Assembly (NCBI GenBank): GCA_020055645.1
Contig: CM034549.1
Coordinates: 17,381,930-17,445,929, forward strand
Length of the DNA stretch: 64,000 bases
Direction of reading: 5' to 3'
Origin: Tomocerus qinae
Taxonomy: Eukaryota > Arthropoda > Collembola > Entomobryomorpha > Tomoceridae
This document shows positions 5,034 through 43,216 of the stretch, in pieces; position 1 is the stretch's first letter, and each line of letters begins with the position of its first letter. The translations under genes and the position numbers were made by a program. The notes beneath the pieces were generated by a model. It searched no databases and was not told the origin of the DNA. It saw only the letters and a list, made by a program, of their open reading frames with translations.

Positions 5034-6804
<1,771 letters not shown>

Positions 6805-9115: not shown

Positions 9116-9236
9116 ATTGAAAGTATAATAGTAGCCCAAAAGATAATGAATGGGTGCATGAATGAATGGTCAGGTTTGTATATAAGTTTTATTATGTAAT
9201 ATTTGTTTTGTTACTGATTACATATTTATTTGATAA

Positions 9237-11073
<1,837 letters not shown>

Positions 11074-12453
11074 TTTGAATAAGAATTTCAGTGAAAAATT
11101 GATTGAAAACAGGAATAGTTATCTCTTCGTCCAATTACCGAAAGTGAAGACCTTTCCGGTTGGGAAGTATAAGATTGCATGAGATTGCTAAAATTGCCTA
11201 GCTATCTTGAGTATTGTTCTTTTTCCCAAACACACAATGTAATCATGTCATTTAACGTTGCCTGCCTTTCTAACAGATATTGTTAGGTTATTCAAAGCCC
11301 TTTAAAAAGTGATGTTTAAATAATATTATATTTATATATCATATAAAATGTAAATGTACTGTTTATTGTTTGTTTATTAATATTATATGGACTTCAATCT
11401 TTCAGCGAAGTCTCTGCAAACAATGCAAAGTCTATAACAGTCACCTTTTCAGCCTTATTTACACATTGTATAACTATATAGACAATTTGAAAGTATGTGA
11501 TGTTTATAAACTAGCAAACCATGAGACTTAACATAATCACCAAAGCTGAGATGTTGATTCGCTCTTTATATTACTACTTTACTACAAAACATGTTGGGAA
11601 CACTTTTACGTAAGCATTAATGAAATAACGAATTGTCATTTACCCATTAGCTGATATTACATACCCGTAGTATACATAGGACTTAAATCATTATCACAGC
11701 ATCGTTTATGTTCTATGGTTGTCTTTAGTCTTTTGTATCTGTTATTTTCCTATATAAGAATACCGATAGCTTCCAATGACCATATATATAATTCAAGTCA
11801 AGACGTCCAGATTCCAATCTACAATGTATATACATACATAAAGTATGTCCCTAGTTCAATACAAGTATATTTTTTTCCTGCTTCGTATGATAATGATCCA
11901 GAATCTTTTATGGCCTTGAACAGCCTGGTTCATTTATCGTGTGATTCTCATTCAAAGTACTTATATAGACTCATCTCTTTATTCCCTTTCTACAGTCCAA
12001 CTTTAGACTTCTGCATGACCAATCCAAGTACAACAAATGCAATTAGAATTATGTTTACTATTTTAGATGCATTTTTGTCTTTCACCATCATCATGACTTT
12101 GACAGAAAAGACAACACATTTTCAAACCATTTCATGCAATCATCGAATTCAAATATTAGGTATGGTCCAATTTTGAAGAACAATAGGAATAAGAGAAGCA
12201 CTCTAATGATAATCAAGTTGATCAACCTATCTATAATTATTTATGAAATGAAAATAAATGAATTGTCATTATTTTTAATATTCACCGTTGACCTCACGAA
12301 ATGAAATTCTCATTACTGTAAAAAATAGTTTTGACAGTCAGTGCTTAACAATTATCTCAAGAAAAATTTACTCAACCAATTCGCATCCATAAATACAATT
12401 TTCTTTCCTCATTTACAATAATTTCTCATATTTGCAGTGCCTTATAGATAGTT
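11074..12453. other. Upstream flank of copy B, non-coding
   Basis: Spacer between the intact channel gene's stop and the start of reductase copy B (both minus strand). It is the counterpart of 6805-8227. A 153-codon open frame (11715-12176, plus strand) is not open in the other copy and shows no family features, so I do not call it a gene. Promoter elements for copy B should lie just above 11073. Confidence 0.6.
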
Positions 12454-15400
12454 CTACACTTTAATCTTGCTAATCGGTGTGTCTAGTACCATTTGGTTTG
12501 CTTCCATTTCTTTCCAGTACCTTTTTCTATCCATGCATATCCTCAGAGTGAAAAAGTAAACAACTTCTATCAAGCTGAGCAGACTGAATCCAAGACAAAG
12601 ACCTGCAAAGAAAATCAGGCAAAATTTTCCTTCGATTCAAGATGAAGTTCATAATAGTAAATATTGAATACTATGCAAGTTTACCCATGACTCCTCCTAA
12701 ATTGGCTGCAATAAGAACAAAAATTGTATAAATTTAGTGCAATAATTGATTCTACCTGTATGATTAAGTTCTCTTGCAATATCATAACTTACACACGAAG
12801 TCTTCCCATGTAAACAACTCGTCTCTTTTGTACTGCATAATGGATGGTTCACGAAAGTAGACTCGAAGTAAGCTAATGCTTCCGCTAAACAAAAGCAATT
12901 GCGTAAATTATTTCCGTTCTTCGTTTATCGTATTATTGGTCAATAGTCATTAACTACAGAAAATGTTTAGGAAATGGAAACATAGAGCTAGCACATTTCA
13001 TAACGAGTTAATTAGCTTCATTAATGTTAAATGTCAGATTAAACTTGATAAAACACGTGCGATTTCTACTGTGCTGTTGATTTGATAAAATAGAAGGAAA
13101 TAATACCTAACATATTTGATGTCATTGAGAAATGAGTATCCATCTTTGATAGCCTAGAAAAAAATACAAAATTTATTTGCATGTTTTGTTTTCTTTAGCT
13201 TTATATAACATTGTTTTTACCTCTCGGAGACTCTTGGTCATATTTGGAAAAGGCTGATTGGGAAAGTCTGCCGCTGTCACCACAATATTGTAGAATGTTT
13301 CATTGCATGCTAAAAAAGTTGACATAAATAGTGATTTGGACAAATAGCATCATAAAACAAGGCAATTAGACAAAGTTGCTGTAGCTATAGTGATTTGAGT
13401 ATCAGGTTACCTCTTCAGAATGTTTGAAAAATGAAAATTCACTTTTTTCATTTGTGGATCTAAATTGGACGATTTAGATCCACAGCCAAATCAGCTCTCA
13501 GTTTTGACTTATGAATACTATGACCCAAAGGTTGGTTGCCATTGGGTACATACAGCTATATAGCTTTGAGTGCAGATTTGGCTGTGGATCTAAATCGTCC
13601 AATTTAGATCCACAAATGAAAAAAGTGAATTTTCATTTCTCAAACATCCTGAAGAGGTAACCTGATACACAAATACACTGCATACTAGCTAATACTACAG
13701 GAACTTTGGCAATTAGATCTTAATCTTGTAGAAGGAGTTCTTGATTACACACCTGGGAGACAATACTCAGTGCACCCTTTCGTTTGCTGCCTGTCCTCCT
13801 TTGATTTGAAATTGAACATAGTTTTCTCCCCTAATATTTGCATACAAATACAAGCAAAGCTATAAAACTGTTAGAATAAATGCAAAAGTGTTATAATACA
13901 GAATTAGGAAAAAGGCATGAGTACTACTATATGCATTAGGTCTGCCTACTTTTCACCAATGTAGAACTATTAATACTAATTACGCAATACGATAATAGAA
14001 ATACGCTATAAATACATCACATAACATACAGAGTTGGTTACAATGTACATAAACGTATTTGCACATGAAAATGCGTGGATGTAGCAAAGGTAGCCATGGG
14101 TGGACTTGGCGTTTGTGTGTAGAAATAAGTGTAAAGGTTTAATCTAAATAGAACATTAAGTACACGCTGGACAGTCATTTTTAACGATAACTACAGTAGC
14201 CAAGTGTAGGTTCCTTAGCTGGTTGTGTTGATATTGTTTATGGTATCTTGTTACAGGGATGTACTTTTTATGTATGTGGTAATCATTATAAATTCACCTG
14301 ATTGCTTCTGATGACTTTTACCGCTCATCCTTTTCTGAATTTCATCTGGTACAAAGAGTCAAAGTATAGATGTATTTATTAAGTGTGAGTGTATAATTGA
14401 TGGTATTCTTCAACTTTTGTGTTTGCTACCTATTCTATAAAATTACATTAAGTAGGGGATTCATAAGCAAAAATAAATAAAACCGGCTCTAATAGGGATT
14501 TATGTCACAATGTATTTAAATTAAGTTTTCTTTTACAGTATCTAGTTACTGATTGATTGGACCATTGAAGAAAGTATCTTAATGTGGTAGATATATTACC
14601 GCATGCATGAACTTTCAGCTTATAATTATACTTAATCGTGTATAAAATCTAACTATACCATATGCATATTAAGAAAACTAGTCTTAACATGCTATATTAT
14701 TATTTACTTTACCGATGTACTTGGAAGCGCATTTTATCATATCATTCATCTTGCAGATCGTGTAGTTCCCTATAAAAATGCAACAAAAATTTACAACGAT
14801 TATTCTCCTTGTAAGTTACGACAGGTATTATTACAAATTACCAGGATTATAGTATGGAACGCATTCGCATCGATCCTGGACAAACTCGGTTTCGCATTCA
14901 ACAACACAAGCAGATCGACTGTAGTTTTTGTGAAAACGCAATTTAAATTCATCGGAGAAATAACACCCACGATTTTCGGGTTGAAATACTCTTAATGCTT
15001 CGGCACTATAAGTATCTACTGCAGTTACTCCAACTAACATTTTCAAAATTTTTGACATACAGTTTATGAAAAGCAAGGATAATCCAGAGTTCAAATATTT
15101 TAAATACCCTGAGTCTCCATTCCTGGACCCACTAGAAACCCTCGCTCTCCTACTGCAGGGAACTCGTCAACTCCATGCACATAAACCTGTACAAGATTTT
15201 AAGAATATTTAAAATTGTTTTACAAATAAATCTTCCAGTTTATATAGGATATGTTTTTGTGGTAGGTACCCGTAATCCTTTAAATGAGTCTGTGGGCACA
15301 GTGTCACAACGTAAAGTATCCGTCATCAGTGTAAGTCCTCGACTTCTTCCAGCACCCTATGCATGAAAACTATTTTTAGAAAAAGTAATTGCATAAAAGC

Positions 15401-28812: not shown

Positions 28813-31794
28813 ATTCACGGTACTCTCATTTCAATCACTCTACCATTTTTCAAAATTAAATGTGTTAGTATAGCACCAATAACATTTCCTGAATCGAAGC
28901 TGTGTCGTATTCTGTATACCTGACTGAAGTAAAATTTCGTACGTACTATTTTTAAGTAAAAAATTATGACTATTTTCAAAAGTGCTCACCAATTCCATCT
29001 CATTTTTTTGCATTCAATTAGAATCGTGGTTTATAATCCAAGTACAATGACATTATTTTACCTAGATTTCATTTTTCAAATCTAGACACTGTTTGCGCTA
29101 TTCTTCTAGTAAAAAGGCTCAATTTAATATTACGCATTACGCAATTTGGAAATTGTAACATTGTCATGAGTCTACATTGAGTCTTGTAAAATCTGCATTT
29201 AACAGTCTCAATTCTAATATATAACCACAGACTGAGATAACGCAATAAATTTACCTACCTATCTATCTATATATCTATCTATGTCTGGTAGGAGAGATTA
29301 GGGAACCTGCACATATTACGTAACGCAAAACTCACTCCCCCGTGTCTAACGCCAGTGCTGACTGTAACACTTTTGATTGCCTTCTCCTCCCATCAATTGC
29401 ACACATAATATATGCATGTTCCTTAAAAGCAAAATGCGCAAGCCCAATTCCTCTAAACCACCGAAATAAGTCGTTTCATATTATTATTACATCAAAACAA
29501 TAATATAAATTTGCATAAGAAGGCTGAATGGTGAGTGGTGATTGAATGGAAATGATTAGCGAAAGGGGACATTGAAATTTCGTAATGATCGTAATGTGCG
29601 TATTGCGTATTAAATAGCATTTTAAAACTTCTAATCCCAATATAGGTTTCCCACAATTGGTGACCGGTAAAATTAACATGAATACGTATTGAAATGACTC
29701 CAATACCTGTGTGTGTTATCCAGGAACTGTGGGAAACGTCTATTGACTGTTGGTTCTGCTATATGGACAAACTTATTTAACATTTTTAGTAGAGTTGGAA
29801 TTAATTTTTTACTACCCTCTTGATTCCTTTGTGCCAGTTGCTACACCTTTTTGTATAATTAAATATCTGTACTGGGAGCCATTATTTATTCTTTAAAAAT
29901 ATTTATTGGTAAGCTGTACTTATGGGATTCTTATTTTTCTGATTTTAAAAGGGAGCTTTTTGATGACTTTGTGGATTTTTTTCAAAAATGTATATTTCAA
30001 CTGTTTCCTGTAATTGATGCTACGATCTACAGTTATTATTTTGGTTTAGGAAATTCCTTTTTATCAGGAAGTTACGGCTGCAGCAAATTTTTCCAACCAT
30101 TGTAGAAAATAAAAGTATATTAATTTAAATATACTTTGTAATTACAATGTTAACACAATTAACTATACGGGATCTGTACGAAATTGTTTTACAAATTACT
30201 ATGTTCCGTAGCCTGCCGAATTTCTCTTGAGTGCAAGGCTTGCGTCTTAGCTGGGTTCACTATTAATATATAAGACTAGAAGCGGTAAACGAGCCTGTTA
30301 GTTGGATAATTGCGGATCAGAGACACAGACCAGAAAGTGTGAAGTTGGGGACATAATAATGAAACAAAACATACAGTAGAACCCTATAACTTGCACTCCA
30401 CTTATCATGTTGATTGGTGTGTTTATATTTCCTGGCGCATAGAACGGTCACTTTCTGGTCTGTGGCGCTACAGTCACTTGTTTTGCTTGTATTGTATGTT
30501 GGACAAGGCCAGAAGCAGAAGGCAGAGGCTTTGGTTGGTACTAATAAATAAATATCAGTATTCAGCTGACGAATTAATACACCTTTATTGTATTTATTAA
30601 AATTATTATTGAGTTCCATGGAAAAGGCGATTGTATACGCATTTGTACGCCTAAAATAAGTACTTTTAATTTATTCAATGATATTGGTGTTTTAACAAGT
30701 GGCAGCGAAGAATAATAGTATGAAACAAAGCAGCACTCCAGAAATAAGGAGTAGAGTTTTGGAATTTAGAAAGCATGTAAATTAGGACTTGATAAATGAA
30801 CGATAACGTCCAATATCCTCTGGAAACATCTGGAAAGATTGGCTTTTGTGGTAACTCCATAATTCCAACGAAATGGAGACCCATAAAACTGGCCCATTAT
30901 ATAATCGTTTAATAGTCTTATATTTTATAGTCTTTTATAACTTCACACTTTTATGACTGGGTTTTCTTTTTGCTCTAGTTATTTAATAAAATTGACCAAG
31001 CCCGTTAATATTTTTAACATTTCTGTCCTTTAGTATCCTCATCCATCCATACAATAGAAAATCAGCTAGCACTTAATACCCTTTTTCCCAATTACATACG
31101 GTAAAATTAAATAATTAATTTTTATACATATACACAATCATGCCACAATTCAGTGGGAAAGGTGGAGGAACTGGGTACAAGTCAATTCCACAGAAAGTTG
31201 AGGGGTTTCCAAAGTTTCCATGGTGGGAAACAGGTAGTCCCAATGCAAGCCCCAATGGTACATGGAAACTATGTAAAAAAATACTAGAAAAAAACGTAAT
31301 GCTAGGTTCTTTGCCTTATTGCAGTGGTTCATAGTGATAATCACAGAAAATTATACTTTAGTTGGCCAATTTATTCTGAAAAGAAGAGGAAGGGAAAATG
31401 AGGGGAAAGACCCCAGACTATTGCAGTACGGGTTTGTCAGCATTTTACCTCAATAATAAATGATCACTATTTTTTTAAATAGTTTAAATTTAAAGGTAGT
31501 TTATAAATCATTTATGCGCACAACGTACATTCTAATATCGAATCATCATTTCATTTAAACGTTCAGTTCATAAACACTTTTTTGTGCATTTGTCAATTCT
31601 TAGTAATTGTAGCGTTTGAAGGCCTAATCTAAGTTTCTAGCAATTCACACAGTATTACTATCTACACGTAATTTTAATTTGTTATTGACATTATCAACAT
31701 TTAATTATTCTTGTGTACTTATGTAGAAATATTATTAGGTTATGTATGGTGACACTAAATTGTAGTACGTATTATTTATTCAATTTTTCATAAT
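28813..31794. other. Gene-poor stretch with microsatellite and inverted repeat
   Basis: Nearly 3 kb with no gene I can support. It contains a (TATC)n microsatellite near 29258-29282 and a perfect 16-bp inverted repeat (30324-30339 versus 30449-30464, CACAGACCAGAAAGTG). Frames at 31140-31334 and 29476-29703 carry no motif. Confidence 0.55.
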
Positions 31795-32773
31795 CTATGT
31801 GTCCATATCTTCGATATAATCTGAATCGTTAGGATCATCATGTTCAGGGTCGTCTGAAAAAGGTTTCTCTTCCTCCGCTTGGTCTTCACTAGCATTGAAA
31901 ATATCTTCTTCGCACACTTCGTCATACGCATTGGGATTGATTTCTTCCTCAATGACAGGTTGGGATTCTTCACTTTTCTCATCTGAAAGTTGGTCAAAAT
32001 AGTATTAACTGTAAATAGAACGTTGCGTACGTGTATTATAGATACGAACTCGGGAATTATTTAATCGCTATTAAAAATTAGACCAGAAGTAAATTCAGAG
32101 ACATCATTTGCAATTCCTGTCCTAGGAACTTTGCTTGGTGTCGCATTCGATGATTCTCTATCGGAGTTCGGTCGAGAATTTACTATCTCATCTCCGCGTT
32201 GTGACTTTCCATCTGTTTTAGTACCTCCAGTAGTAAGTCCCGCATCTAAAGGTAGTTAAAGTCAATTGAGATACATCGAACGAATACCCATTTAAAATAG
32301 CGAAAAGAAAATGTATCTGAACCACTAAAAGGCTCCAATGACGTGTTCAGGTCATTCTGGTCATCCAAGTCCAAATCTTCGAAATTCTGATCGTCGATGT
32401 CATTTACATTGTCATTCTGATCCACACTCACCTCATTTACATTGATATTCCGACCATTCTCTACAACATTTACATTGTCATTCTGATCCAGACTCATCTC
32501 ATTTACATTGATATTCCAACCATTCTGTACAACATTTACATCACCATTCTGATTCATCACCACTCCATTTACAATGACATTCCGACATTTACCACCATAT
32601 TTACACCATTCTGACCATTCACTAGAATAAAATCTACATTTTCAACATAAATGTGACTATCCCTAGTTTCGTCTGCAAATTCATCGTCTCTCTCAATGTC
32701 TGAGTCTTCAAAGATACTCTCAATATCTGATAATTCTTCAACCTCATCTTCAGATAATTGGTCCTCTTCACTT
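31795..32773 (-). pseudogene. Acidic repeat-containing host gene, 3' part (interrupted)
   Basis: Downstream part of a host gene cut by the LTR retrotransposon at 32774-41841. The first exon resumes at 32769 directly in the frame left at 41842 once one copy of the ACTT target duplication is removed, reading EEDQLSEDEVEELSDIES, strongly acidic. It then passes through about three 66-bp repeats (22 aa; DQNDNVNVVENGRNINVNE type) to a donor after 32323. Exon 2 is 32245-32084 and the last exon 31982-31795, ending DYIEDMDT. Inside the first repeat, near 32585, one base is missing relative to the other repeats and shifts the frame to a stop at once, so the gene seems broken twice, unless that is a sequencing error. 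I do not recognise the family; an acidic start like this is seen in many nuclear and transposase-derived proteins. Confidence 0.6.
32395..32610 (-). repeat. 66-bp coding tandem repeat, 3-4 units
   Basis: Direct repeats such as GATCAGAATGACAATGTAAATG alternating with GGAATATCAATGTAAATGAG, period 66 bp (22 codons). Units closest to 32400-32530 are most alike; the outermost near 32585 has lost one base. They encode an Asn/Val-rich segment of the interrupted acidic gene. Confidence 0.75.
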
Positions 32774-33247
32774 TGAAAGGATGGTCTATCCAGTTATGCT
32801 CAATAAGGTAGTGACGACTACTCTTAATGAGTGTTACAAGGTTCAAGTGTGATTACCGGATATGCGGAAGAAGGTGGGATACGAATAATAACTGAGATGA
32901 ATTGTATTGTGATTGAATGTGACCGAAATACTTAGAAATGTGAAATGTCAGTGGGAGAACAACGCAAGTGGAGTTGGTAGCAAACACGGAAGGAAAGTTT
33001 ATTTAGCAAGTAAATTGTGAGACCAATAAAGTGTAATGTGAATCAATGATAAATATACTTTGGAATAAGAGAATGATACTGAGAATGATAATAGAATGAT
33101 ACAAGTCAATAGATGTATGTTCAGGTTCCAGTCCAGAGAGCAACTGGCTGTTGGCGGACGTGGTTCCTTAGATTATACGTTGTCTTAGGTGAGGTGGTGC
33201 GGTGGGGTAAGAGGGTGACTGAGAAGGGGTCGAAGTACACTCTTACA
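32774..33247 (-). repeat. 3' LTR
   Basis: 474 bp, matching 41368-41841 with no difference that I could see. On the minus strand it begins TGTAAGAGTG and ends CATCCTTTCA. It overlaps the end of the zinc-knuckle ORF (stop at 33185). Confidence 0.95.
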
Positions 33248-33556
33248 ACCTCCCTCGCTCTGAACGTTGGGTACGCTGCTGGTCTTCTGCTTAAGATGGT
33301 CCATAACTTTCGCGAAAGCCTTGTCTATCCGTGCATTTTGCTGTCTGTTGTTCCTCTTTTTGTTCTGCTTGTCTCGAACATTTCCAAACTGTCTGCGGTA
33401 TTGTCTTGTGGCTTGATTGTTCCTTGGGTTGGTACAGGATTTAGCGTAGTGGCCTACTTCTTGGCACCTTCTGCACTTCTTGTCCTTATAAGGGTTGTCA
33501 GCAAACTCGTTCGATTCGACATCAAGCTCAAACGTCGTCGTCTGAATGATCTTCAT
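33185..33556 (-). CDS. Basic zinc-knuckle ORF of the retrotransposon
   Basis: A 123-aa frame beginning at an ATG inside the last 29 nt of the exonuclease ORF, in the +1 frame relative to it. It contains one CCHC knuckle, CRRCQEVGHYAKSC (C-x2-C-x4-H-x4-C), followed by a very basic Arg/Asn/Gln-rich stretch (RRQFGNVRDKQNKKRNNRQQ). It runs across the polypurine tract and 62 nt into the 3' LTR before stopping. Overlap with the upstream frame suggests either termination-reinitiation or a +1 shift that would append an RNA-binding tail to the exonuclease. A second nucleocapsid-like knuckle besides the one in gag is unusual. Being open through constrained sequence (PPT) argues it is translated, but chance cannot be excluded. 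Confidence 0.6.
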   Translation of the reverse strand: MKIIQTTTFELDVESNEFADNPYKDKKCRRCQEVGHYAKSCTNPRNNQATRQYRRQFGNVRDKQNKKRNNRQQNARIDKAFAKVMDHLKQKTSSVPNVQSEGGCKSVLRPLLSHPLTPPHHLT

Positions 33557-34934
33557 CAAAAAGTTTCGGGACGGGAGAAATTGGAGTTAGCTGCTCAGCT
33601 CCGGTGGTACTGGTAAGAAGTTCATAGTACTCGGTCGTCATTTCTTCTTCTTCAGGATTCAAAATTTGGATGATCTGAGAGAGATGAGGAATGATAGCTG
33701 TGGAGTACTTATAATTGGTTGGAGATGTTAATTCCCTCAGGTCAGGCTTCTTTTTGGCAATTCTGGAGAGCTCGTAAGTCGATATAATAGTAGTCTCCGC
33801 TTCGTCTAGTAATTTTGCTGTGTTTCTCCTCCAGTAAAACAGTTCAGTGAATAAAGATTGGTCATCAGCTGTTAGAGTCTTATAGTAAGTAGAATCAAGA
33901 TGAGATTTACGTACTGGAAATGAATAGCATACTCTAGTTAAAGAAATAGATTTATCGATAGGAATGAAAGTATCAAAACCCGGTACGATGTTCTGATAAT
34001 CTGCAATAATCCTCGGAAGTAGTTTCTCCCAAATTTTTAGAATTAAGCCGCTATCGTGCACAGCATATTCCATTTGTCTGGGATGGAGTGGTCTTATCGT
34101 CCAGTCCGAAAGTTGTGGAAGTTTATCTGGAGTGGGATGATTTGGAAACGCCCATTGGTATAGTTTCTGGAATCCAATCAGTTGAGTATGACCTGTAAAG
34201 TGTTGGTAAACGAATTGCAAGTCAATAAGTCCGACGATAAATATATCGAAGTCCCGTTGTAGGTGGCGAATGTCGTTTCCGGCTCCGTGTGTGATTTTGA
34301 TAATATGAGGATTCTCAAGAAGAGTCTTTAAATCAGTCTTAATAAATTCTTGCATGCCAATAGGAAATGGATCGATGACGTAAGTTTTGCCCGGCGTAGA
34401 TATCTGTATCGTAGAAATCATACCCAAGTAGGAGTGGTCTTGATGCTCTTCAACGTCAATCGCAAAGTTGTTGAGTCTTTGGAGGTGTGTCATCATTATT
34501 TTGGCTCGCTTAGTGGTGTCGACAAATTCTGCCTCTTTTGTAGCTTCATCCTGTAAGTTCATGATGTCCACTGTAGGTTCCCATAATATGATTTTTGTAT
34601 TGTTGGGATTGGTGGAGTAATGATAAGCTGCCTCGTGATTTAGCATAATCCGGTGTTGTAAGAAGTCCGGGTTGGTAGATTGAGGTTTGACCTTTGAAAC
34701 GCCAAAGTACTTGTCCGCGACTCTCTTCTTTTCCCAGTATGAAGTCTTGTCGTTGGTAGAAACGTTTACATCAGTCTCTTCATTGTCACCATGTCGTCTC
34801 GCGGGTGTCTCTGTCCGGTTGTCGGAGTGGCGGGTAGGAGTACGTGTATCGCTGTACCAAGCTTTCTCGACTCGGTAGCACGCTTTACGACGCTGTTGTC
34901 CTAGGAACTGATGAGTATCTACTTGACGATACAT
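33528..34934 (-). CDS. DEDDy 3'-5' exonuclease + HRDC (EXOSC10/RNase D-like), in retrotransposon
   Basis: A 468-aa ORF between pol and the 3' LTR. Residues about 150-310 form an RNase D/Rrp6-type exonuclease: exo I FAIDVEEH (Asp160, Glu162), exo II HGAGNDIRHLQRDF (Asp221), LIDLQFVYQHF, DWTIRPL, and exo III EYAVHDSG (Tyr290, Asp294). All five DEDDy residues are present with spacing close to EXOSC10. Residues about 351-425 (LFTELFYWRRNTAKLLDE... LSRIAKKKP) look like the HRDC domain that follows the exonuclease in EXOSC10. The N-terminal 70 residues are basic, and the tail is acidic (DEDHSDDDV). In the family the activity is 3'-5' hydrolysis of RNA ends with two metals. In the element its role is unknown: trimming of element RNA or primer tRNA, or countering host RNA decay or silencing, are guesses. 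No intron remains, as expected for cargo passed through RNA. Confidence 0.88.
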   Translation of the reverse strand: MYRQVDTHQFLGQQRRKACYRVEKAWYSDTRTPTRHSDNRTETPARRHGDNEETDVNVSTNDKTSYWEKKRVADKYFGVSKVKPQSTNPDFLQHRIMLNHEAAYHYSTNPNNTKIILWEPTVDIMNLQDEATKEAEFVDTTKRAKIMMTHLQRLNNFAIDVEEHQDHSYLGMISTIQISTPGKTYVIDPFPIGMQEFIKTDLKTLLENPHIIKITHGAGNDIRHLQRDFDIFIVGLIDLQFVYQHFTGHTQLIGFQKLYQWAFPNHPTPDKLPQLSDWTIRPLHPRQMEYAVHDSGLILKIWEKLLPRIIADYQNIVPGFDTFIPIDKSISLTRVCYSFPVRKSHLDSTYYKTLTADDQSLFTELFYWRRNTAKLLDEAETTIISTYELSRIAKKKPDLRELTSPTNYKYSTAIIPHLSQIIQILNPEEEEMTTEYYELLTSTTGAEQLTPISPVPKLFDEDHSDDDV

Positions 34935-35049
34935 CTGTAATTATCATAGAATGTAATGGTAGATAATAACTTATTAAAAGTGTCTTGTGCTTGCTTTGTG
35001 CTTATCTTATCTATTTTGAATTATCATTAAAAGATTTAAGTATTTTAAA

Positions 35050-35408
35050 TTTTGTGGCCATCTGCAGGGAAGGATAGGATAAAAATTTTGTGGCCATCTG
35101 CAGGGAAATATACTATGTTAATTTTTATGGCCATCTGCAGAGAAGGATAGGATAAACATTTTGTGGCCATCTGCAAAGAAATATACAAATTTTAATTTTG
35201 TGGCCATCTGCAGTAAAAGATAGGATATACGTTTTGTGGCCATCTGCATGAAAATATACAAATTTAAATTTTGTGGCCATCTGCAGTAAAAGATAGGATA
35301 TACGTTTTGTGGCCATCTGCATGAAAATATACAAATTTAAATTTTGTGGCCATCTGCAGTAAAAGATAGGATATATGTTTTGTGGCCATCTGCAGTAAAA
35401 GATAGGAC
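35050..35408 (-). repeat. 36-bp tandem repeat array between pol and exonuclease ORF
   Basis: Ten copies of a unit with the invariant core GGCCATCTGCA (plus-strand reading) at a period of about 36 bp. Two unit types alternate: one followed by GTAAAAGATAGGATATACG, the other by TGAAAATATACAAATTTAAA. It occupies most of the 614 bp between the pol stop and the exonuclease start, so it may be regulatory (promoter, insulator or RNA element). Confidence 0.9.
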
Positions 35409-35548
35409 TGAAAAAAAATTATAGAATAAAGAATTAGAATTACTGTGTATGTATAGAATTTAGCTGTAAAGTAAAATTTTATCAGTTAAACTTTGTGTTG
35501 CTATATATATATAGAACTTATAACTATAACTTATATTAACTTATATTA

Positions 35549-38500
35549 CTACTTCTTAAAGAAACGAGTGTATTGACCAGGGATACGAGGTTTTCGCCTA
35601 GGTCTGTCATTATATTGGAGGTTAGGATTTTTCCGGTTGGAAGTTTTGGGAAGCAAGGGATTTCCGGAAAATTTAGGTTTGGAGTTTTTACTATAGGGAC
35701 GTCTATGGTATGGCTTAATATCAGAAACATGTCTTTTACCAATATTACACTTATTACGCTCATCATATAAATCGTAAGTTACTGGAGTTAGCTGTGCCTT
35801 AATCTTATATGGCCCTATCCATGTGGGTGCTAGCTTAGCTGAAAAATTTGAAGCTGCATCTGATAATACATGGTTTCGAACTAAAACTTCCTGGTCTATT
35901 AGATATATAACATTCCTATGGTGTTTATCGTAATAATGCTTATATGATATCTGTGCTTCAGTAATATTGTCTCTAACATAATTTATAATATCTACTAAGT
36001 GATTAGGAAGCTGGCTTATCTGCTCCCTCGCTCTATCGAAGTCTATATCTTCAGAATCCATTAAATTTCTATCAAACGGTAGTGCAATTTCTCTACCTAA
36101 GTTCAATAAAGCTGGACTAACTTTCGTACTGTCATGAATAGCTGACCGCAGTGCTAAACCAAAAAATTGCAAATATTCATCCCACGATGATTGCTGTCCG
36201 TCTATGAAACTTTTAATCATTGCTTTTAAAGTTTTATTTACCCTTTCTACTTGATTAGGTTGAGGATGATATACGCTAGTGAATCTATGTTCAATATTCC
36301 ATTCCTTGCATAATTCCTTCAACTTTTTAGAAATAAATTGAGAACCATTATCTGACACCAAAATTTTGGGAGAACCGAAGTGGCAAAAGATCCATTCTAA
36401 CCAATACTTCACTTGGCCTGCTGTAGCTGTCCGCATCGGTATGACTTCTACCCATTTAGATAACTGATCCTGTACAACTAAAAGATATTTATTATTTCTG
36501 CCCGACTTACTCGTTGGCAGTGGTCCCATGAAATCTACATATAAAGTATGAAAAATATATGGAGCTATATCATTAAAACCCATAAGACCTGCTTTCAGTT
36601 GAGTCTCACTCTTAATCTTCTGACATGTATCACAAGATTTGATATATGCCTTTACGTCTTTTTCTAACGTTGGCCAATAAACTCTTGACTTCAACATCTG
36701 CAACGTTTTCTTCATTCCTCTATGTCCAGATTCCGGTGAGTCGTGAAACATATACATTACTTGATGTCTCAGGCTATTTGGAATAACTGGAATTAATTTA
36801 TTCTTACATTGCATCTTCACTTTGTCTTTGATACTGGCATTGCTGTCGTAGTACTCCGAAGCATGTCCTGTATCCTTTTCTTCTTTCTTGGTACCTTTGC
36901 ATGCCTCTGCATACGTAATTGGAACCATTTCATCTTCTTCACGAGTCAACTCCTGCTTTCTCACAGTGTTGCTCCTCTTAATTTCTTCTTTTGGTAACAT
37001 CAAACTTATTCTTTTGTATAACATACCTTTTTGATAGCAAAATTCTGAGTTTTCCGTGATCAGTGGCTTCCTCATAATTGCTCTCAATATCTTCTGACAC
37101 TCCTCGTCGTTGCGCTGCTCTTGTCTAATTTTAGTGCCCGAGGGTCCTCTAAACATTAGTCCGAAACAAGGAATAAACATAACTTCTGGATCGTCCATGA
37201 AGTCAGACTCTTTACCCGTTGGTGGAACTGGAGCTCTTGATAACGCGTCCGCTATCTCGTTCTCTGTTCCTGGTACATGTTTTATCTTGTCAAGGTAGGG
37301 TTGTAAGCGCATTGCCCATCTTCCAAGTTTGGAATCGTTGTCCTTATTCTCGTGCAGGTGCGTAAGTGCCTTGTTATCTGTAATGATGTGAAAATCTTCT
37401 CCCCAAATATAGTCGTAAAATTTTTCTGTTGCCCACATAATTGCTAATAGTTCTCGTTCACACGCATGTAAATTTCTTTCAGATTGCTTTAATGATTTAC
37501 TAGCATAGTGAATGATCTTACGTTTACCGTCAATTATCTGCATTAGTACTGCTCCGAGTCCAATTTTTGAAGCATCGCAGTGTATAATAATAGGGAAGTC
37601 GTAGTCTATACTGCTCAATAGGGCTTGCTCACACATCAGATTCTTCAAGTGCTGAAATGCCGTTTCTTGAGTCTTTCCCCAATACCATGTTGTAGTTTTT
37701 CTTAACAATGAGTTGAGTGGTTCTGCTATATCTGCATAATGAGGAATAAAAGCTTGGCAGTAACCTACTTTACCGAGAAATCTTCTTAGGTCGGATACGG
37801 TTCTAGGCCGTGGGAAGTCTTTGATTGCCCTGATCTTCTCAGGATCTATACTTATGCCGTTGGAACTTACGACGTGGCCCAGGAATACGATTGAAGTTCT
37901 CGCGAATTCACTCTTCTCTCTGTTGATGGATATGTTTGCATCCTTGAGTCTCTGTAATACGATGTCTACATGTTTGATGTGTTCCTCTAAAGTTTGAGAA
38001 AAAATTATGATGTCATCTACAAAAACGAATACAAAATTTCCAATTAAGCCTTCGAGTACTTTATTCATTAATTCTACGAAAGTTTTTGGTGCATTCTTCA
38101 ATCCAAAAGGCATGACTAAAAATTCGTAGTGTTGTCCGTCTACAGTAAAAGCTGTCTTTTCTACACTTCGCTCGTCCATTGGAGTTTGCCAAAATCCGGA
38201 TTCGCAATCGATTTTCGAATACCATCTAGCTGTAGGAAGTACTTTAAGTATGTGCTGGCCGTTATGCATCGGTGTCCTATTGTCTCTAGTTTTCTTGTTT
38301 AATTTCTTGTAGCTAATTGCCATACGTAGTTTTCCATTACGCTTACTTGCCATTACTACATTTGCATTATATGGAGATTGTGATGGTCGAATTAAGCCTC
38401 TTTTCAATAAGTCTTTAGTTTGCTTACGTATTTCTTCAGCCATCTTTCTGCCAGGTTGTCTATACGGAGTGTATACTGGTTCGTCAGGTGCATCGATGAA

Positions 38501-39100
38501 GTGTTTGACGAGTGTAGTTTTTCCTAAGATTCTGTGATGTCCTGATATGGTTGGGTATTTGTCTAGTAAATCTTCGAACATCTTTTGGATATCTTGATCT
38601 GTTTTTACTTTAATTTCTTCGCATTTAAGTGGGAATAAATATTTACCAGTTTTGTTGCCAATGATTGCATATTGTCGCTTATCTTTGTCGTCATCAAACC
38701 AGAATGCGTTTCCCTTCAGATGGAAGATCATGTCGGTGGTACTAATGATGTCTTTTCCTATAAGAACTGGAACTGGTAATTTTTCTAGTACGTAAAAATC
38801 ATGGATTAATTTCTTATGACCAATTAAAATTTCTAACTTGATTTTGCCAATTGGTTTTACGATGGCATTATTTGCGCATGTAAGTGGAATAGGTCTGCAG
38901 GGTTCAATACGCTTTGCTAATTTGGCTGCAAAAGATTTTCTAACTACTGAGTAATCTGATCCGGCATCTAAATATGAAGGTGAAATAGTTGCGGATTCAT
39001 TAAAAAATATTGATATACTTGATGATAATTTGTTATTTTTAGAATTGGACTTTTTAAGGGGAAGGCAGAAGTCAGGAAAGTTGTCTTCCCCTATTGCTCG
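35549..39100 (-). CDS. pol: Retrotransposon pol: protease, RT, RNase H, integrase
   Basis: About 1183 codons in the -1 frame relative to gag, entered at the slippery site 39106-39100. The first 120 codons, with no ATG of their own, carry the aspartic protease (YLDAGSDYSVV, then VPVLIGKDII). The first in-frame ATG of the long stretch is at 38731. After it come the reverse transcriptase (YSKIDCESGFWQ, MPFGLKNAPKTF, and FVDD as catalytic box), RNase H (IIHCDASKIGLGAVL, ERELLAIMWA, ITDNKAL, EIADALSR), and the integrase with its HHCC finger (SGHRGMKK...CDTCQK), DDE residues (YVDFMGPLP, VSDNGSQF, HPQPNQVERVNKTL), and a C-terminal GPY/F motif (WIGPYKI). No internal stop. All catalytic residues I know to look for are in place, so the polyprotein should be active. 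Usual Ty3/Gypsy domain order. Confidence 0.96.
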   Translation of the reverse strand, partial: RAIGEDNFPDFCLPLKKSNSKNNKLSSSISIFFNESATISPSYLDAGSDYSVVRKSFAAKLAKRIEPCRPIPLTCANNAIVKPIGKIKLEILIGHKKLIHDFYVLEKLPVPVLIGKDIISTTDMIFHLKGNAFWFDDDKDKRQYAIIGNKTGKYLFPLKCEEIKVKTDQDIQKMFEDLLDKYPTISGHHRILGKTTLVKHFIDAPDEPVYTPYRQPGRKMAEEIRKQTKDLLKRGLIRPSQSPYNANVVMASKRNGKLRMAISYKKLNKKTRDNRTPMHNGQHILKVLPTARWYSKIDCESGFWQTPMDERSVEKTAFTVDGQHYEFLVMPFGLKNAPKTFVELMNKVLEGLIGNFVFVFVDDIIIFSQTLEEHIKHVDIVLQRLKDANISINREKSEFARTSIVFLGHVVSSNGISIDPEKIRAIKDFPRPRTVSDLRRFLGKVGYCQAFIPHYADIAEPLNSLLRKTTTWYWGKTQETAFQHLKNLMCEQALLSSIDYDFPIIIHCDASKIGLGAVLMQIIDGKRKIIHYASKSLKQSERNLHACERELLAIMWATEKFYDYIWGEDFHIITDNKALTHLHENKDNDSKLGRWAMRLQPYLDKIKHVPGTENEIADALSRAPVPPTGKESDFMDDPEVMFIPCFGLMFRGPSGTKIRQEQRNDEECQKILRAIMRKPLITENSEFCYQKGMLYKRISLMLPKEEIKRSNTVRKQELTREEDEMVPITYAEACKGTKKEEKDTGHASEYYDSNASIKDKVKMQCKNKLIPVIPNSLRHQVMYMFHDSPESGHRGMKKTLQMLKSRVYWPTLEKDVKAYIKSCDTCQKIKSETQLKAGLMGFNDIAPYIFHTLYVDFMGPLPTSKSGRNNKYLLVVQDQLSKWVEVIPMRTATAGQVKYWLEWIFCHFGSPKILVSDNGSQFISKKLKELCKEWNIEHRFTSVYHPQPNQVERVNKTLKAMIKSFIDGQQSSWDEYLQFFGLALRSAIHDSTKVSPALLNLGREIALPFDRNLMDSEDIDFDRAREQISQLPNHLVDIINYVRDNITEAQISYKHYYDKHHRNVIYLIDQEVLVRNHVLSDAASNFSAKLAPTWIGPYKIKAQLTPVTYDLYDERNKCNIGKRHVSDIKPYHRRPYSKNSKPKFSGNPLLPKTSNRKNPNLQYNDRPRRKPRIPGQYTRFFKK

Positions 39101-40599
39101 TTTAAATTTTCTTCGGATTGTTGAGTTTCTTCGGTTTGTTCGTCAACCCATTCTTCTTGCTCTTGAAGTAGCATGACTCTATTATCTGTACATTGATAGG
39201 ATCTGTGTCTAGGATCTCCGCATTTGTAGCATCCACTATTTGCTTGCTGAGGTCGTCCTCGCCTTCCTCTTGAACTTTGTCCTCTTTGACCTCTAGGATT
39301 TTCATCTCGCCTTTGGTTTGGCTGTCTGTCCTGTTGGTTGGTTTGCTGGTTCCGATCAAAGGAATTTGTTTGCTGAGGTTGTCCTTGCTGTTCATTTGCA
39401 TTATCAGTTATTGGACCTTGGGGATTATCGTAACTTCTATAGAAACTTCTACCTCTATAGTTACCTCTACCTCTATAGTTCCCTCTACCTCTACGTTGAT
39501 TAGAATTGTTATATGAATTGTTACCGTCCGGATGCCTTACTTGCACGCCAGGCATCGCCGCCACGGTAGTTTGAATACCTTGATTAGCATCTTGAGCTCT
39601 CAAATCCTCAACGACCATCTTTGCCCTTGAAAGTAGATTGTCCACGGTGTAGTATGTAAGTTCTCCAATGGCAATCTTGATTCTTGGAAGCATCGCATTT
39701 CTGCATCGTCTAACGCTTTCAGCCTCAGGTTCATCAGGAAATACTTGCCTTGCCAGTCTGACCATCTCCCAGACGAACTTTTCTACATTATCTTTCTCGC
39801 CTTGAACTTTGGTAATTAGGTGTTGAGTACGCTTATTTCTTTCTAGCCATGTATCGAATTTATTGATAAAAGCTTCTCTAAAATCTTCCCATACCCAATG
39901 TGGTTGAACAACGTAGTCGTACCAGGCCTTTGTCTCCTTAGTGATAACGGTTGACATCATGTAAATCCAGCTGTCTCGAGTATAATGTTGACTTCTGAAA
40001 TAAGCTTCGACATCGACTAAATAATTAGCTGCCGTCTGTGTATTAGGATTATACTTTGGAATTGGAATATTAGAATTAGCTATTGGAAATGGTAATTGCC
40101 TTGGTGCCTGTTGGTTCATAACCGGTTGTTGAACTGCTTGTTCATACCTTGGTTGGTGTCTAAGTAAATCTATAAGCTGGGCTATCTGTGCTTGTTGCTG
40201 TTGAATTATGTTAAGTGTTAGATTAGGATATTCTTGCCTGTTATGTCTTTCATTATCTGGTCTTAACCTCTCTCTCTGATTGGCTGCTGCTCGTGGCGCC
40301 TGTCTAGGACTTACTTCGTTTCGATTTTCCGCGTGCTCATTGTTCATCAATGGCGGAATTCGAGGATTTTCTTCGTCTCTAGCTGCTCCAATCACTTCGT
40401 TGATTACATTCTGTACATGATTTCCTTGCTCCTCCATCTCGAAGAACAACGGAAAGAGTTGGCCCTCTCTGGATACTGGATCTGACTGTCGTCGATTACC
40501 CCCACCTCTTCTTCTTCGATTCTGCTCAATCAACCTTTGTTGATTTTCGATGTGGTCAGGGTTGTTTCTACGATGATATCTCTCTTCTCGACTTGACAT
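39091..40599 (-). CDS. gag: Retrotransposon gag
   Basis: 502-aa structural protein. The N-terminus is Arg/Asn-rich; residues about 200-340 resemble the retrotransposon gag capsid domain (AWYDYVV..WEDFREAFINKF..ERNKR, then VEKFVWEMVRLARQ). A run of Arg-Gly repeats (RGRGNYRGRGNYRGR) and Gln-rich spacer follow, and the nucleocapsid knuckle CYKCGDPRHRSYQC (C-x2-C-x4-H-x4-C) is at about 457-470. It ends 15 nt after a TTTAAAC heptamer, so a fraction of ribosomes should shift -1 into pol. Confidence 0.93.
   Translation of the reverse strand: MSSREERYHRRNNPDHIENQQRLIEQNRRRRGGGNRRQSDPVSREGQLFPLFFEMEEQGNHVQNVINEVIGAARDEENPRIPPLMNNEHAENRNEVSPRQAPRAAANQRERLRPDNERHNRQEYPNLTLNIIQQQQAQIAQLIDLLRHQPRYEQAVQQPVMNQQAPRQLPFPIANSNIPIPKYNPNTQTAANYLVDVEAYFRSQHYTRDSWIYMMSTVITKETKAWYDYVVQPHWVWEDFREAFINKFDTWLERNKRTQHLITKVQGEKDNVEKFVWEMVRLARQVFPDEPEAESVRRCRNAMLPRIKIAIGELTYYTVDNLLSRAKMVVEDLRAQDANQGIQTTVAAMPGVQVRHPDGNNSYNNSNQRRGRGNYRGRGNYRGRSFYRSYDNPQGPITDNANEQQGQPQQTNSFDRNQQTNQQDRQPNQRRDENPRGQRGQSSRGRRGRPQQANSGCYKCGDPRHRSYQCTDNRVMLLQEQEEWVDEQTEETQQSEENLNEQ
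39100..39106 (-). promoter_or_regulatory. -1 ribosomal frameshift heptamer TTTAAAC
   Basis: On the minus strand, gag reads GAA AAT TTA AAC GAG CAA TAG. T-TTA-AAC is the classical X-XXY-YYZ slippery site, placed in the right phase, 9 nt before the gag stop; slipping back one base enters the pol frame (CGA GCA ATA GGG..). An overlapping A-AAT-TTA also fits the rule. A stimulatory stem-loop or pseudoknot was not checked. Confidence 0.8.
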
Positions 40600-40614
40600 T
40601 AATTAAGTTATACC

Positions 40615-40908
40615 TCAATAACCCAATTCGGACGGAAGTCTGTTATCTATATGAATGACTGAAAAATTAATTAGTGACTTTTGTAATTCTCTATTCAATG
40701 AAATTCTGATGTTCTCGACCAATGTTGTACACTGAAAAGTTGTAAATAAATGAGTTATTCTTATAGTTAGGCTACTTCCTACTTGATTAACTTCAATAGG
40801 AAAATTCCCACTAGACTGCTTGACTAACTCGATTACCGTTTCCTTTTCTAGAATCTGTACTCTTGGCAAAGTATTAACTAAATTTAATTGAATTACGACT
40901 TCTTTCAT
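40615..40908 (-). CDS. Small leader ORF of the retrotransposon, unknown
   Basis: 97-aa ORF (starts MKEVVIQLNLVNTLPRVQ, ends HIDNRLPSELGY) located between the leader repeats and gag, ending only 15 nt before the gag ATG. It has no cysteine, no TM segment and no motif I recognise. It may be an accessory protein, an upstream ORF that tunes gag translation, or chance. Confidence 0.4.
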   Translation of the reverse strand: MKEVVIQLNLVNTLPRVQILEKETVIELVKQSSGNFPIEVNQVGSSLTIRITHLFTTFQCTTLVENIRISLNRELQKSLINFSVIHIDNRLPSELGY

Positions 40909-40973
40909 TGAAAATATTTAGGAAATAGGAATTTAAAAGGATCGTATATTTGGTTACTCTTACACTCGTATCT

Positions 40974-41180
40974 CAGGATCACGCTTTCAACACGTTCTGC
41001 ACTGAAATATTTAATTAATCTTTTATATATCAGGATCACGCTTTCAACACGTTCTGCTCTGAAATATTTAATTACTCTTATATTTCAGGATCACGCTATC
41101 AACACGTTCTGCACTGAAATACTTAATTACTCTTATATTTCAGGATCACGCTATCAACACGTTCTGCACTGAAATATTTA
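40974..41180 (-). repeat. 57-bp direct repeats in the element leader, 4 units
   Basis: Four copies of CAGGATCACGCT(T/A)TCAACACGTTCTGC(A/T)CTGAAATA followed by an AT spacer, period about 55-60 bp. They lie in the 5' untranslated leader between the 5' LTR and the first ORF, where packaging signals, enhancers or insulators are found in other Gypsy-class elements. Confidence 0.88.
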
Positions 41181-41347
41181 ATTTTTATACCTGTGAGTAC
41201 CCAAATATAGATTTTAAAAGCTTTACTTACTTTCTGGTTCGTGTGCTCCAGTTTACTCCAAGAATTTTTTTACTTTAAAATAATCACAATTGGTAATCAA
41301 AATTGAATGGTTTGCACACCTGTTCTATCGCAAAACGGTGAAACAAA

Positions 41348-41365
41348 ACCGGGTTGGAGGCACCA
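41348..41365 (-). other. Primer-binding site of the retrotransposon
   Basis: Minus-strand TGGTGCCTCCAACCCGG, starting two bases after the 5' LTR end. The initial TGG pairs with the CCA of a tRNA 3' end. I cannot assign the tRNA with confidence. Confidence 0.75.
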
Positions 41366-41367
41366 GT

Positions 41368-41841
41368 TGAAAGGATGGTCTATCCAGTTATGCTCAATAA
41401 GGTAGTGACGACTACTCTTAATGAGTGTTACAAGGTTCAAGTGTGATTACCGGATATGCGGAAGAAGGTGGGATACGAATAATAACTGAGATGAATTGTA
41501 TTGTGATTGAATGTGACCGAAATACTTAGAAATGTGAAATGTCAGTGGGAGAACAACGCAAGTGGAGTTGGTAGCAAACACGGAAGGAAAGTTTATTTAG
41601 CAAGTAAATTGTGAGACCAATAAAGTGTAATGTGAATCAATGATAAATATACTTTGGAATAAGAGAATGATACTGAGAATGATAATAGAATGATACAAGT
41701 CAATAGATGTATGTTCAGGTTCCAGTCCAGAGAGCAACTGGCTGTTGGCGGACGTGGTTCCTTAGATTATACGTTGTCTTAGGTGAGGTGGTGCGGTGGG
41801 GTAAGAGGGTGACTGAGAAGGGGTCGAAGTACACTCTTACA
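41368..41841 (-). repeat. 5' LTR
   Basis: 474 bp with the same sequence as 32774-33247. It carries the element's promoter. Flanked outside by the ACTT target duplication (41842-41845). Confidence 0.95.
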
Positions 41842-41877
41842 ACTTGAAGTATCGAACTCGTCATCGTTGCTTGACAT
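41842..41877 (-). pseudogene. Acidic host gene, 5' coding fragment (interrupted)
   Basis: Start codon at 41877-41875 followed by MSSNDDEFDTSS, then the retrotransposon. The frame continues without a break at 32769 on the far side if one ACTT is dropped. See the entry at 31795-32773 for the rest of the gene. Confidence 0.62.
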
Positions 41878-42610
41878 TTTATGCACCGTACGTTGGGAAT
41901 TCTATCTTTGTGATTGAAAACAGCGGATTTGGTGGATTTTCGCCTGAAGAAGACTATTTTTGAGGAAATGTTACTAATTTGGCTATTATGGTAGTTTACT
42001 TTCTCAGGTGAGGAGATTTGGAATTCCACACGGGGGAATTTAAAATCGAATTTGGAACGTAAACAACCATTCTGTAATGAGTAATGACCATTGCATCACT
42101 GCACCCCCAAAAATTCCATGGTAGCAATCAAGGATGTAGCAATAATACTCAACCCGTGGCAGATCCCCATGGAAAAATGAAAAAATGAAAAGTGGGTGGG
42201 AAAGCTCGCCAATTGACGTCATTGGCGAGTGTGTATTTAAATTGAGATCCCCAAGTGGGGGAAATTAGGGATCGGCTGTAGTCATGTAAATTTTCCACAC
42301 ATTTTCACTTGTTCCGAACCCCCAATAAATCGAATAATCTGCCATTCCTTTTCTATAATATTATATTCTATATTCCTTGATAATACTCATACCCTAATCA
42401 AGACTCTCTTGACGAATGATGTCACGTCACGTCCCAAACATCATTTTGCCAAATTCCGAAGTCTTTTCACCTGAGAAAATAAAATATGCAGTTTTTATGT
42501 AAACACATTGGTTAGTCCTGTGATGAATTTGTTTTTATGGAAAAGTTTGCTTGTTCATGTACTTACCGTTGACTAACTTCACTCAGAATACGTTGATACT
42601 CAATTTCGCC
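41878..42610. promoter_or_regulatory. Divergent promoter with CRE/CCAAT palindrome
   Basis: Region between the starts of the interrupted acidic gene (minus) and the three-TM gene (plus). At 42205-42229 lies CTCGCCAAT-TGACGTCA-TTGGCGAG: a consensus CRE/ATF octamer flanked by inverted CGCCAAT arms (CCAAT box on each strand). A TATTTAAA follows at about 42233. The arrangement suggests a shared bidirectional core promoter; no coding exon is supported here. Confidence 0.5.
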
Positions 42611-43216
42611 ATGAACAACATCTTAAAAGGAATTGTAAGAAAGTTACTGTTACTGCCGAATATTTATACTTAGTTCACAGTTAAATTATTTTCCTTGGAT
42701 GGAATGTCATTAGTATTTTTTTCTTGATATTTCAACTTGGGTAAAAGCATATAATAATATCTAATGTAGTCGTTCGTATTTTATTAGCTACGAGAAGCAG
42801 GGAGTGTGGTTTTAGGTATCGCAATACCAGTGTTCGTGGCACAATGGATTATAGATTGGATATTTGGTCCGTGGCAAGGCCACTTTGTCTTCGTCTATTT
42901 CATGTTTTGTTTGCTACTGTCACTCGATTATACAATCCCTGATCTTCACCCATTGTTAGCAAAATTTGTAAGCGACTAAAACTACAACCTGAAGAAAAAA
43001 ATATTTTTTAAACTGACTCACTCACTATAATGGGTTTATGACCGTCTCTTATATGCAACGTAAGAATCCTCTAATAATTACGTTTTGCAGGTCCAATTAT
43101 CTGCGGATATTCTAGTTGCAATCGTTTTCGCCTTGCTGTTTTTCTTGTTTGAGAAGATCAGCTCAAATAAAACTTCTATGGATCATAATCTATGTCCGTT
43201 ATTTCAGCTTGCGTGA
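42611..43216 (+). CDS. Small three-TM membrane protein, unknown
   Basis: Three exons, 42611-42634, 42788-42967 and 43091-43216, all phase-0 GT-AG introns; 109 aa. It starts MNNILKGILREAGSVVLG. Three hydrophobic segments follow: about 13-33 (GSVVLGIAIPVFVAQWIIDW), 39-56 (HFVFVYFMFCLLLSLDY) and 72-92 (ILVAIVFALLFFLFEK). The polar tail is short and contains one Cys. The tiny first exon and three matching phases make this a credible gene although no exon is a long frame. I do not recognise the family. Confidence 0.6.

Follow-up and report, generated by a model that had tools for sequence, protein, structure and literature searches.

A stretch of 64,000 nucleotides from the collembolan Tomocerus qinae (assembly GCA_020055645.1, contig CM034549.1, positions 17,381,930 to 17,445,929) was analyzed at its full length and is referred to as the window. 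A 9,068-bp Ty3/Gypsy element was located on its minus strand, spanning 41841 to 32774. Between pol and the 3' long terminal repeat (LTR), this element carried a third open reading frame (ORF3), the product of which was assigned by sequence and predicted fold to the Rrp6-type 3'-5' exonucleases, with a complete catalytic set. From 5' to 3', the element was composed of an LTR, a putative primer site, gag, pol, a tandem array, ORF3, a purine-rich tract and the 3' LTR. The features are given below in window positions.

41842..41845, no strand: target-site duplication AAGT, upstream copy
41368..41841, minus strand: 5' LTR, 474 bp, TG...CA, identical to the 3' LTR
41349..41365, minus strand: putative primer binding site, starting TGG, 2 nt past the 5' LTR
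39091..40599, minus strand: gag, 502 codons, zinc knuckle CYKCGDPRHRSYQC, Retrotrans_gag match
35549..39142, minus strand: pol open frame, 1197 codons, with a weak protease-like stretch, reverse transcriptase, RNase H and integrase
35046..35407, minus strand: tandem array in the pol-ORF3 gap, unit length 36-37 nt, about 10 copies, with YTGCAGATGGCCACAAAA
33528..34934, minus strand: ORF3, Rrp6-type DEDDy exonuclease and HRDC-like region, 468 codons, ATG right after TTACAG
34008..34529, minus strand: exonuclease domain (D160, E162, D221, Y290, D294), from Pfam and a residue check
33741..33860, minus strand: HRDC-like region, below the Pfam cut-off, covered by the Rrp6 fold match
33185..33559, minus strand: ORF3 tail with the zinc knuckle and a basic stretch, lying in a different frame in this copy and reaching into the LTR
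33428..33481, minus strand: CCHC zinc knuckle (Pfam PF00098, E 2.8e-05)
33248..33261, minus strand: purine-rich tract adjoining the 3' LTR
32774..33247, minus strand: 3' LTR, 474 bp, TG...CA, identical to the 5' LTR
32770..32773, no strand: target-site duplication AAGT, downstream copy

The original prediction, which was made from the window's letters, had placed a nuclease frame between pol and the 3' LTR of a Ty3/Gypsy element with identical LTRs. This position was confirmed through gag, pol and both LTRs, and the 474-bp LTRs were indeed identical and bordered by the AAGT duplication. The match of gag to Retrotrans_gag (E 0.0033, 18.1 bits) was below the Pfam cut-off of 24.1. The gag and pol frames differed and overlapped by 52 nt, and the Pfam domains within pol followed the order reverse transcriptase, RNase H and integrase, as in Ty3/Gypsy. 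The closest database pols had the identical domain order (57% identity over 95%), and the named entries Ty3-G and Gypsy were found further down. An Rfam search of 30000-43000 gave nothing that reached the gathering level. Four repeats were identified by eye in the leader between the 5' LTR and gag (about 40950-41180).

The predicted 468-codon frame with a DEDDy exonuclease was present at 33528-34934. Its match to Pfam DNA_pol_A_exo1 (PF01612; E 3.9e-26, 92.3 bits, cut-off 23.6) ruled out a chance ORF, and the five residues D160, E162, D221, Y290 and D294, which make up DEDD and the Tyr of DEDDy, were all present as predicted. The expected HRDC match reached 18.7 bits in the window copy and was under its cut-off of 23.8; HRDC was matched at E 0.01 in 19 of 27 aligned rows, a set of 27 that includes 3 cellular ones, and the fold match of ORF3 to Rrp6 extended across the HRDC-like region. 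The identity between ORF3 and EXOSC10/Rrp6 was 20-25% in structure alignments. WRN was among the weaker PDB matches, and the nearest in sequence and fold was Rrp6 with HRDC. A single-sequence fold prediction was not usable (predicted local distance difference test score, 35.3). These comparisons supported an Rrp6-type exonuclease; a plain RNase D or a DNA exonuclease was less fitting, and an envelope glycoprotein was not recovered, as sequence and fold matched a nuclease instead. The host EXOSC10 was found as a separate, intron-split gene, 63% identical to the human protein over 131 columns. Two host genes labeled Nibbler-like by us rather than by a search (L037 and L038) were also present separately.

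The distribution of the exonuclease was explored in the 334-Mb assembly. The PF01612 profile gave 106 matches across the host genome, 101 of which were tabulated (5 rows were omitted as further pieces of places already listed), and 56 of the 101 were in frames of at least 400 codons. Together with a protein search (91 matches), 103 distinct exonuclease places were obtained, host genes counted. As far as is known, insects have fewer than 10 such exonuclease genes; the control genomes of the search tool were prokaryotic. An exonuclease on the same strand, from a 7 nt overlap to 2.2 kb downstream, accompanied 41 of the 43 pol loci of the first pol search. When a search by a 40% pol was added, the association was found at 47 of the 50 pol loci of the lineage, with 7 loci of another lineage set aside. 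By contrast, none of the 45 pol loci of the other Gypsy lineage (pol P0113, 38% identical to the window's pol over 41% of its length) had an exonuclease within 4 kb downstream. The pol searches each scored 43-45 loci out of more than 1,100 first-look candidates, and these fractions are not genome-wide.

The window LTR had 12 genome matches, which formed six pairs with zero solo LTRs. The following LTR pairs were recorded elsewhere in the genome.

C3:40381758-40390604: family copy
C1:43643705-43652611: family copy
C1:75864810-75868580: family copy with a deletion that leaves gag and a later portion of ORF3
C3:99567-106628: family copy in which only 42 residues of ORF3 were matched
C1:56790137-56794938: relative, LTR identity 73%

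An internal LTR pair (99.2-99.7% alike) was also found in L020 and L016, where the exonuclease frame ended 0-135 bp ahead of the 3' LTR; in L020 it stopped at the start of the 3' LTR. No LTR pair was found inside 18 of the 20 ten-kb loci of other places, in which the 5' end was often outside the stretch.

The exonuclease tree comprised 46 rows and the tree of the pol integrase part 47 rows, including 21 database pols; L001-L008, whose places are also covered by longer loci, were omitted, as were L010, L028, L032 and L042. The 25 rows common to both trees included two elements joined from separately fetched pol and exonuclease loci. The two trees shared 18 of 22 splits, and 8 of 10 at one row per family, whereas relabeled-tip controls shared 0.19 and 0.27 splits on average, with a maximum of 3. 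The mismatches were two joins among near-identical copies and two deeper ones within a single clade. ORF3 was passed down together with pol in this Ty3/Gypsy lineage, the families of which now have about 26-50% of exonuclease residues in common. In the pol tree, the clade of the window also took in P0003, a pol of 57% identity from a Joint Genome Institute contig of 8,959 bases. A one-off capture was ruled out by the many places, the 47/50 association with pol and the agreement of the two trees.

A phylogeny against cellular relatives had been proposed with the original prediction. In the tree with EXOSC10, RRP6 and RNase D, which further omits L037, L038 and L043, the 37 genome rows other than EXOSC10 fell together, but they were split from the cellular rows (support 93/94, not starred) rather than grouped with EXOSC10/RRP6. 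Because the genome rows fall on one side, a single origin of the ORF3s from an Rrp6-like stem is likely, though not proven.

The ORF3 protein showed purifying selection, as had been predicted from the open frame. The five catalytic residues were complete in 37 of the 38 fetched genome rows (the two Nibbler-like rows set aside), and the exception, L044, was a short stretch. The Nei-Gojobori ratio of nonsynonymous to synonymous change (dN/dS) was computed for 22 chosen pairs, 4 of which had saturated dS; it was well below 1 overall, ranging from 0.077 to 0.558 (median 0.18) and being less than 1 in 18 of the 18 measurable pairs. The two highest values came from L020-L025, a pair that differs little, and from L029-L030, of which L030 has an out-of-frame tail. 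For pol, the ratio was 0.067-0.277 in the 5 computable of 8 pairs. Hence, with close relatives carrying ORF3 under selection, ORF3 appears to be a functional component of the element. Of the outcomes named in advance as contrary to the original prediction (copies without the ORF, dN/dS near 1, no exonuclease domain by HMM), none was in the main observed.

In two of the three clades, ORF3 had a C-terminal CCHC zinc knuckle together with an acidic linker and a basic tail. The exonuclease frame continued into the knuckle in L029 (a 96% copy) and in other families; within the window's clade this was the case in 10 of the 14 rows, and in the other 4 (the window, L021, L030 and L036) the knuckle match was in another frame or piece. 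CCHC was found in 7 of the 8 rows of the second clade (L043 and L045-L051). The inspected rows of the third clade had a CxxC motif and a basic tail at the end, and L010 was cut short. A programmed frameshift to the knuckle as the normal state was disfavored because the frame was continuous in 10 of the 14 rows. The frame had been described as intact. This is only partly true: it applies to the nuclease and HRDC portion alone, since the knuckle tail is out of frame in the window copy.

The ATG of ORF3 in the window adjoined TTACAG, a similar CAG or TAG was found in L029-L031, L033 and L034, and the leader contained a donor-like AAGTAAGT. A strict acceptor rule (YAG no more than 16 nt before the ATG, after at least 8 pyrimidines in 12) was satisfied by 7 of 17 representative ORF3 starts versus 139 of the 1818 ATGs in those loci (related rows, p 1.5e-4). 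Because ORF3 starts tend to follow sequence resembling a 3' splice site, ORF3 is probably translated from a spliced subgenomic mRNA, like retroviral env.

Tandem arrays with units of about 28-37 nt were observed between pol and ORF3 in the window, L029-L031, L033, L034, L020, L021, L025, L009, L012 and L013; array units of 82 nt with two cores were seen in L033/L034. The units varied by family around a common core like GGCCAC, AGACCAT, TTACCAC or TGACCAC. Arrays were present in 14 of 23 pol-ORF3 regions (2 of the 14 minor) versus 6 of 71 control blocks, and they are perhaps candidate protein-binding or RNA-export arrays.

Solo exonuclease frames were observed at L019 (C1:123764496), L022 (C4:1234820) and L027 (C4:33456161), whose 10-kb loci contained nothing that matched gag or pol of the window element. 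L039, L040 and L044 were solo frames known from short stretches alone, and L044 had lost catalytic residues. These six are candidate domesticated genes. Furthermore, L028, C1:114091334, C3:10898901 and C4:3403105 had the same 181-residue exonuclease match, which in L028 was divided among three frames, with a CCHC knuckle after it.

The original prediction knew of no described family with such a nuclease. This claim falls, because the work of Rodriguez, Kenefick and Arkhipova (2017; PMC5408684) describes a DEDDy ORF3 in the bdelloid rotifer LTR elements Juno and Vesta, gained at least twice, and a DEDDy ORF in Athena elements; the role of extra enzymatic ORFs was left open there. The finding is restated in reviews: DEDDy/DnaQ-like exonuclease ORFs in retroelements are also treated in PMC6338049, PMC5718144 and PMC6431247, with rotifers as the hosts where a host is named, and a mosquito host exonuclease is the subject of PMC8421150. 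As described in PMC5408684, Juno and Vesta resemble the T. qinae element in an RNase D/Rrp6-like DEDDy ORF3, its position between pol and the 3' LTR and TG...CA LTRs. Vesta2 and Vesta5 ORFs have a Cys-His-Cys motif, and in the T. qinae lineage the knuckle is fused in many families. The Juno/Vesta pols contain a dUTPase between protease and reverse transcriptase, whereas no Pfam dUTPase match at E 0.1 was found in the 1197-codon pol frame, and their motif is DEED, in contrast to DEDD in the window. The likeness to bdelloid ORF3, against which the dN/dS of about 0.18 in T. qinae is set, was judged by published description rather than sequence. Exonuclease ORF3s in LTR elements are thus already known from rotifers, and that of T. 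qinae is a variant with DEDD, without a dUTPase match and often knuckle-fused.

Compared with EXOSC10/Rrp6, ORF3 was often CCHC-ended in addition to being distant in sequence and outside their rows. Nibbler/Mut-7, Egalitarian and Exd1, which are DEDDy-fold proteins of small-RNA pathways or RNA transport, were weaker matches than Rrp6. A third ORF after pol, probably expressed by splicing, is shared with errantiviruses, which are Gypsy elements that carry env, and with further LTR elements that have extra ORFs; unlike in errantiviruses, it matches a nuclease fold. No exonuclease relatives were found in viral_contigs and genome_contigs, and no P0003 pol relatives in viral_contigs. With the pol profile, viral_contigs yielded nothing and genome_contigs a single uninformative locus, L054 (32% identity), whose record bears the title of a bacterial metagenome-assembled genome. 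The exonuclease profile contained no sufficiently conserved stretch. The ORF3 protein searches gave 2 and 4 matches, none shown as a retroelement and none rotifer-named; such searches reach only relatives that share short words.

Elsewhere in the window, the joined flanks of the element (32470-32773 and 41842-41930) formed a single small acidic open frame starting MSSNDDEFDTSSEEDQL. Hence, the element had interrupted this frame, which by resemblance may be the start of a piggyBac-like transposase. A long direct repeat, probably a tandem duplication, was observed at 5032-12665; its copies are 87-98% alike and spaced about 4.2 kb from each other. An acidic repetitive frame of 1118 codons with a 27-bp repeat and without a Pfam match was observed at 56287-59643.

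Within its Ty3/Gypsy lineage, the frame has long been established as a third gene. The best overall explanation, to which a confidence of 0.7 was given, adds that this gene is probably spliced and its product probably active; among the possible roles, an anti-silencing one is preferred, at a much lower probability. ORF3 would be expressed via a spliced subgenomic mRNA and would digest RNA from 3' to 5', and the knuckle, where present, would tether the enzyme to RNA or to the nucleocapsid. That the product is such an active RNA exonuclease is quite likely, and conservation of the catalytic site speaks against ORF3 being no more than an RNA-binding shell. In trans, the enzyme might attack RNA 3' ends and weaken host small-RNA or decay control. 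This last step is tentative; some viral DEDD exonucleases destroy immune RNAs, and the analogy with them is its basis. Several observations weigh against the explanation as a whole. The CCHC knuckle lies out of the exonuclease frame in the window copy (33185-33559) and likewise in L030, and it was found in 0 of the 11 rows of the third clade (L009-L018 and L026); therefore, it is not essential everywhere. Although relatives carry the same ORF, one of the six family copies (C3:99567-106628) keeps 42 residues, and three of the 50 lineage pol loci (C1:25088662, C1:51228575 and C1:97147053) had no detected downstream exonuclease. The catalytic count covers 38 rows fetched out of 103 places; the dN/dS pairs, a chosen set, have rows in common and hence are not independent, and faster change may also reflect weaker constraint. 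Moreover, 10 of the 17 ORF3 starts, the window included, fail the strict acceptor rule, and the rows of that test are related. The anti-silencing role itself is built on analogy alone.

A use of ORF3 in the element's own replication is nearly as plausible as the anti-silencing role. Inside the particle, the enzyme would trim genomic or subgenomic RNA at the 3' end or would remove or process the tRNA primer. Rrp6-type enzymes trim the 3' ends of structured RNA, and a gag-like zinc knuckle could bring ORF3 into the particle. RNA 3'-end processing was also proposed by the bdelloid authors (PMC5408684). However, the 45 pol loci of the other Gypsy lineage in the same genome manage without the exonuclease. 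A defined RNA 3' end is, as far as we know, not required for LTR replication. Action on DNA is unlikely: proofreading or trimming of reverse transcripts, like DnaQ-like or WRN exonucleases, would agree with some DEDDy enzymes being DNA exonucleases and with the weaker WRN match, but the nearest relative in sequence and fold is an RNA enzyme, Rrp6 with HRDC, and not WRN. It is equally improbable that ORF3 degrades the RNAs of competing or sister elements or restrains its own. Many families of the lineage coexist among the 103 exonuclease places, host genes counted, but self-limiting elements should lose out to others according to the bdelloid authors (PMC5408684). A passenger host gene, captured once and functionless for the element, is strongly disfavored and has very little probability. 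The broken tails of two window-family copies (the window and L030) and the loss of most of the frame in another would fit such a passenger, but not the near-complete catalytic set, dN/dS below 1 in every measurable pair and inheritance alongside pol across divergent families.

With the long-standing ORF3 taken as the preferred explanation, a wider scenario was also considered, which is more doubtful than either proposed role. In this scenario, an old, vertically inherited Ty3/Gypsy lineage with an Rrp6-type nuclease and knuckle in the env position would defeat small-RNA silencing, and the host would have repeatedly kept solo copies, at least one of them catalytically dead, as genes. What extra enzymatic ORFs do for LTR elements is largely unproven. 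In T. qinae, a nuclease gene is found throughout a broad lineage, where it tracks pol and shows purifying selection; hence, the role of an RNA exonuclease in a retroelement becomes testable by ordinary biochemistry. If ORF3 does act on host small RNAs, it would be, as far as we know, a new type of silencing countermeasure in animal retroelements.
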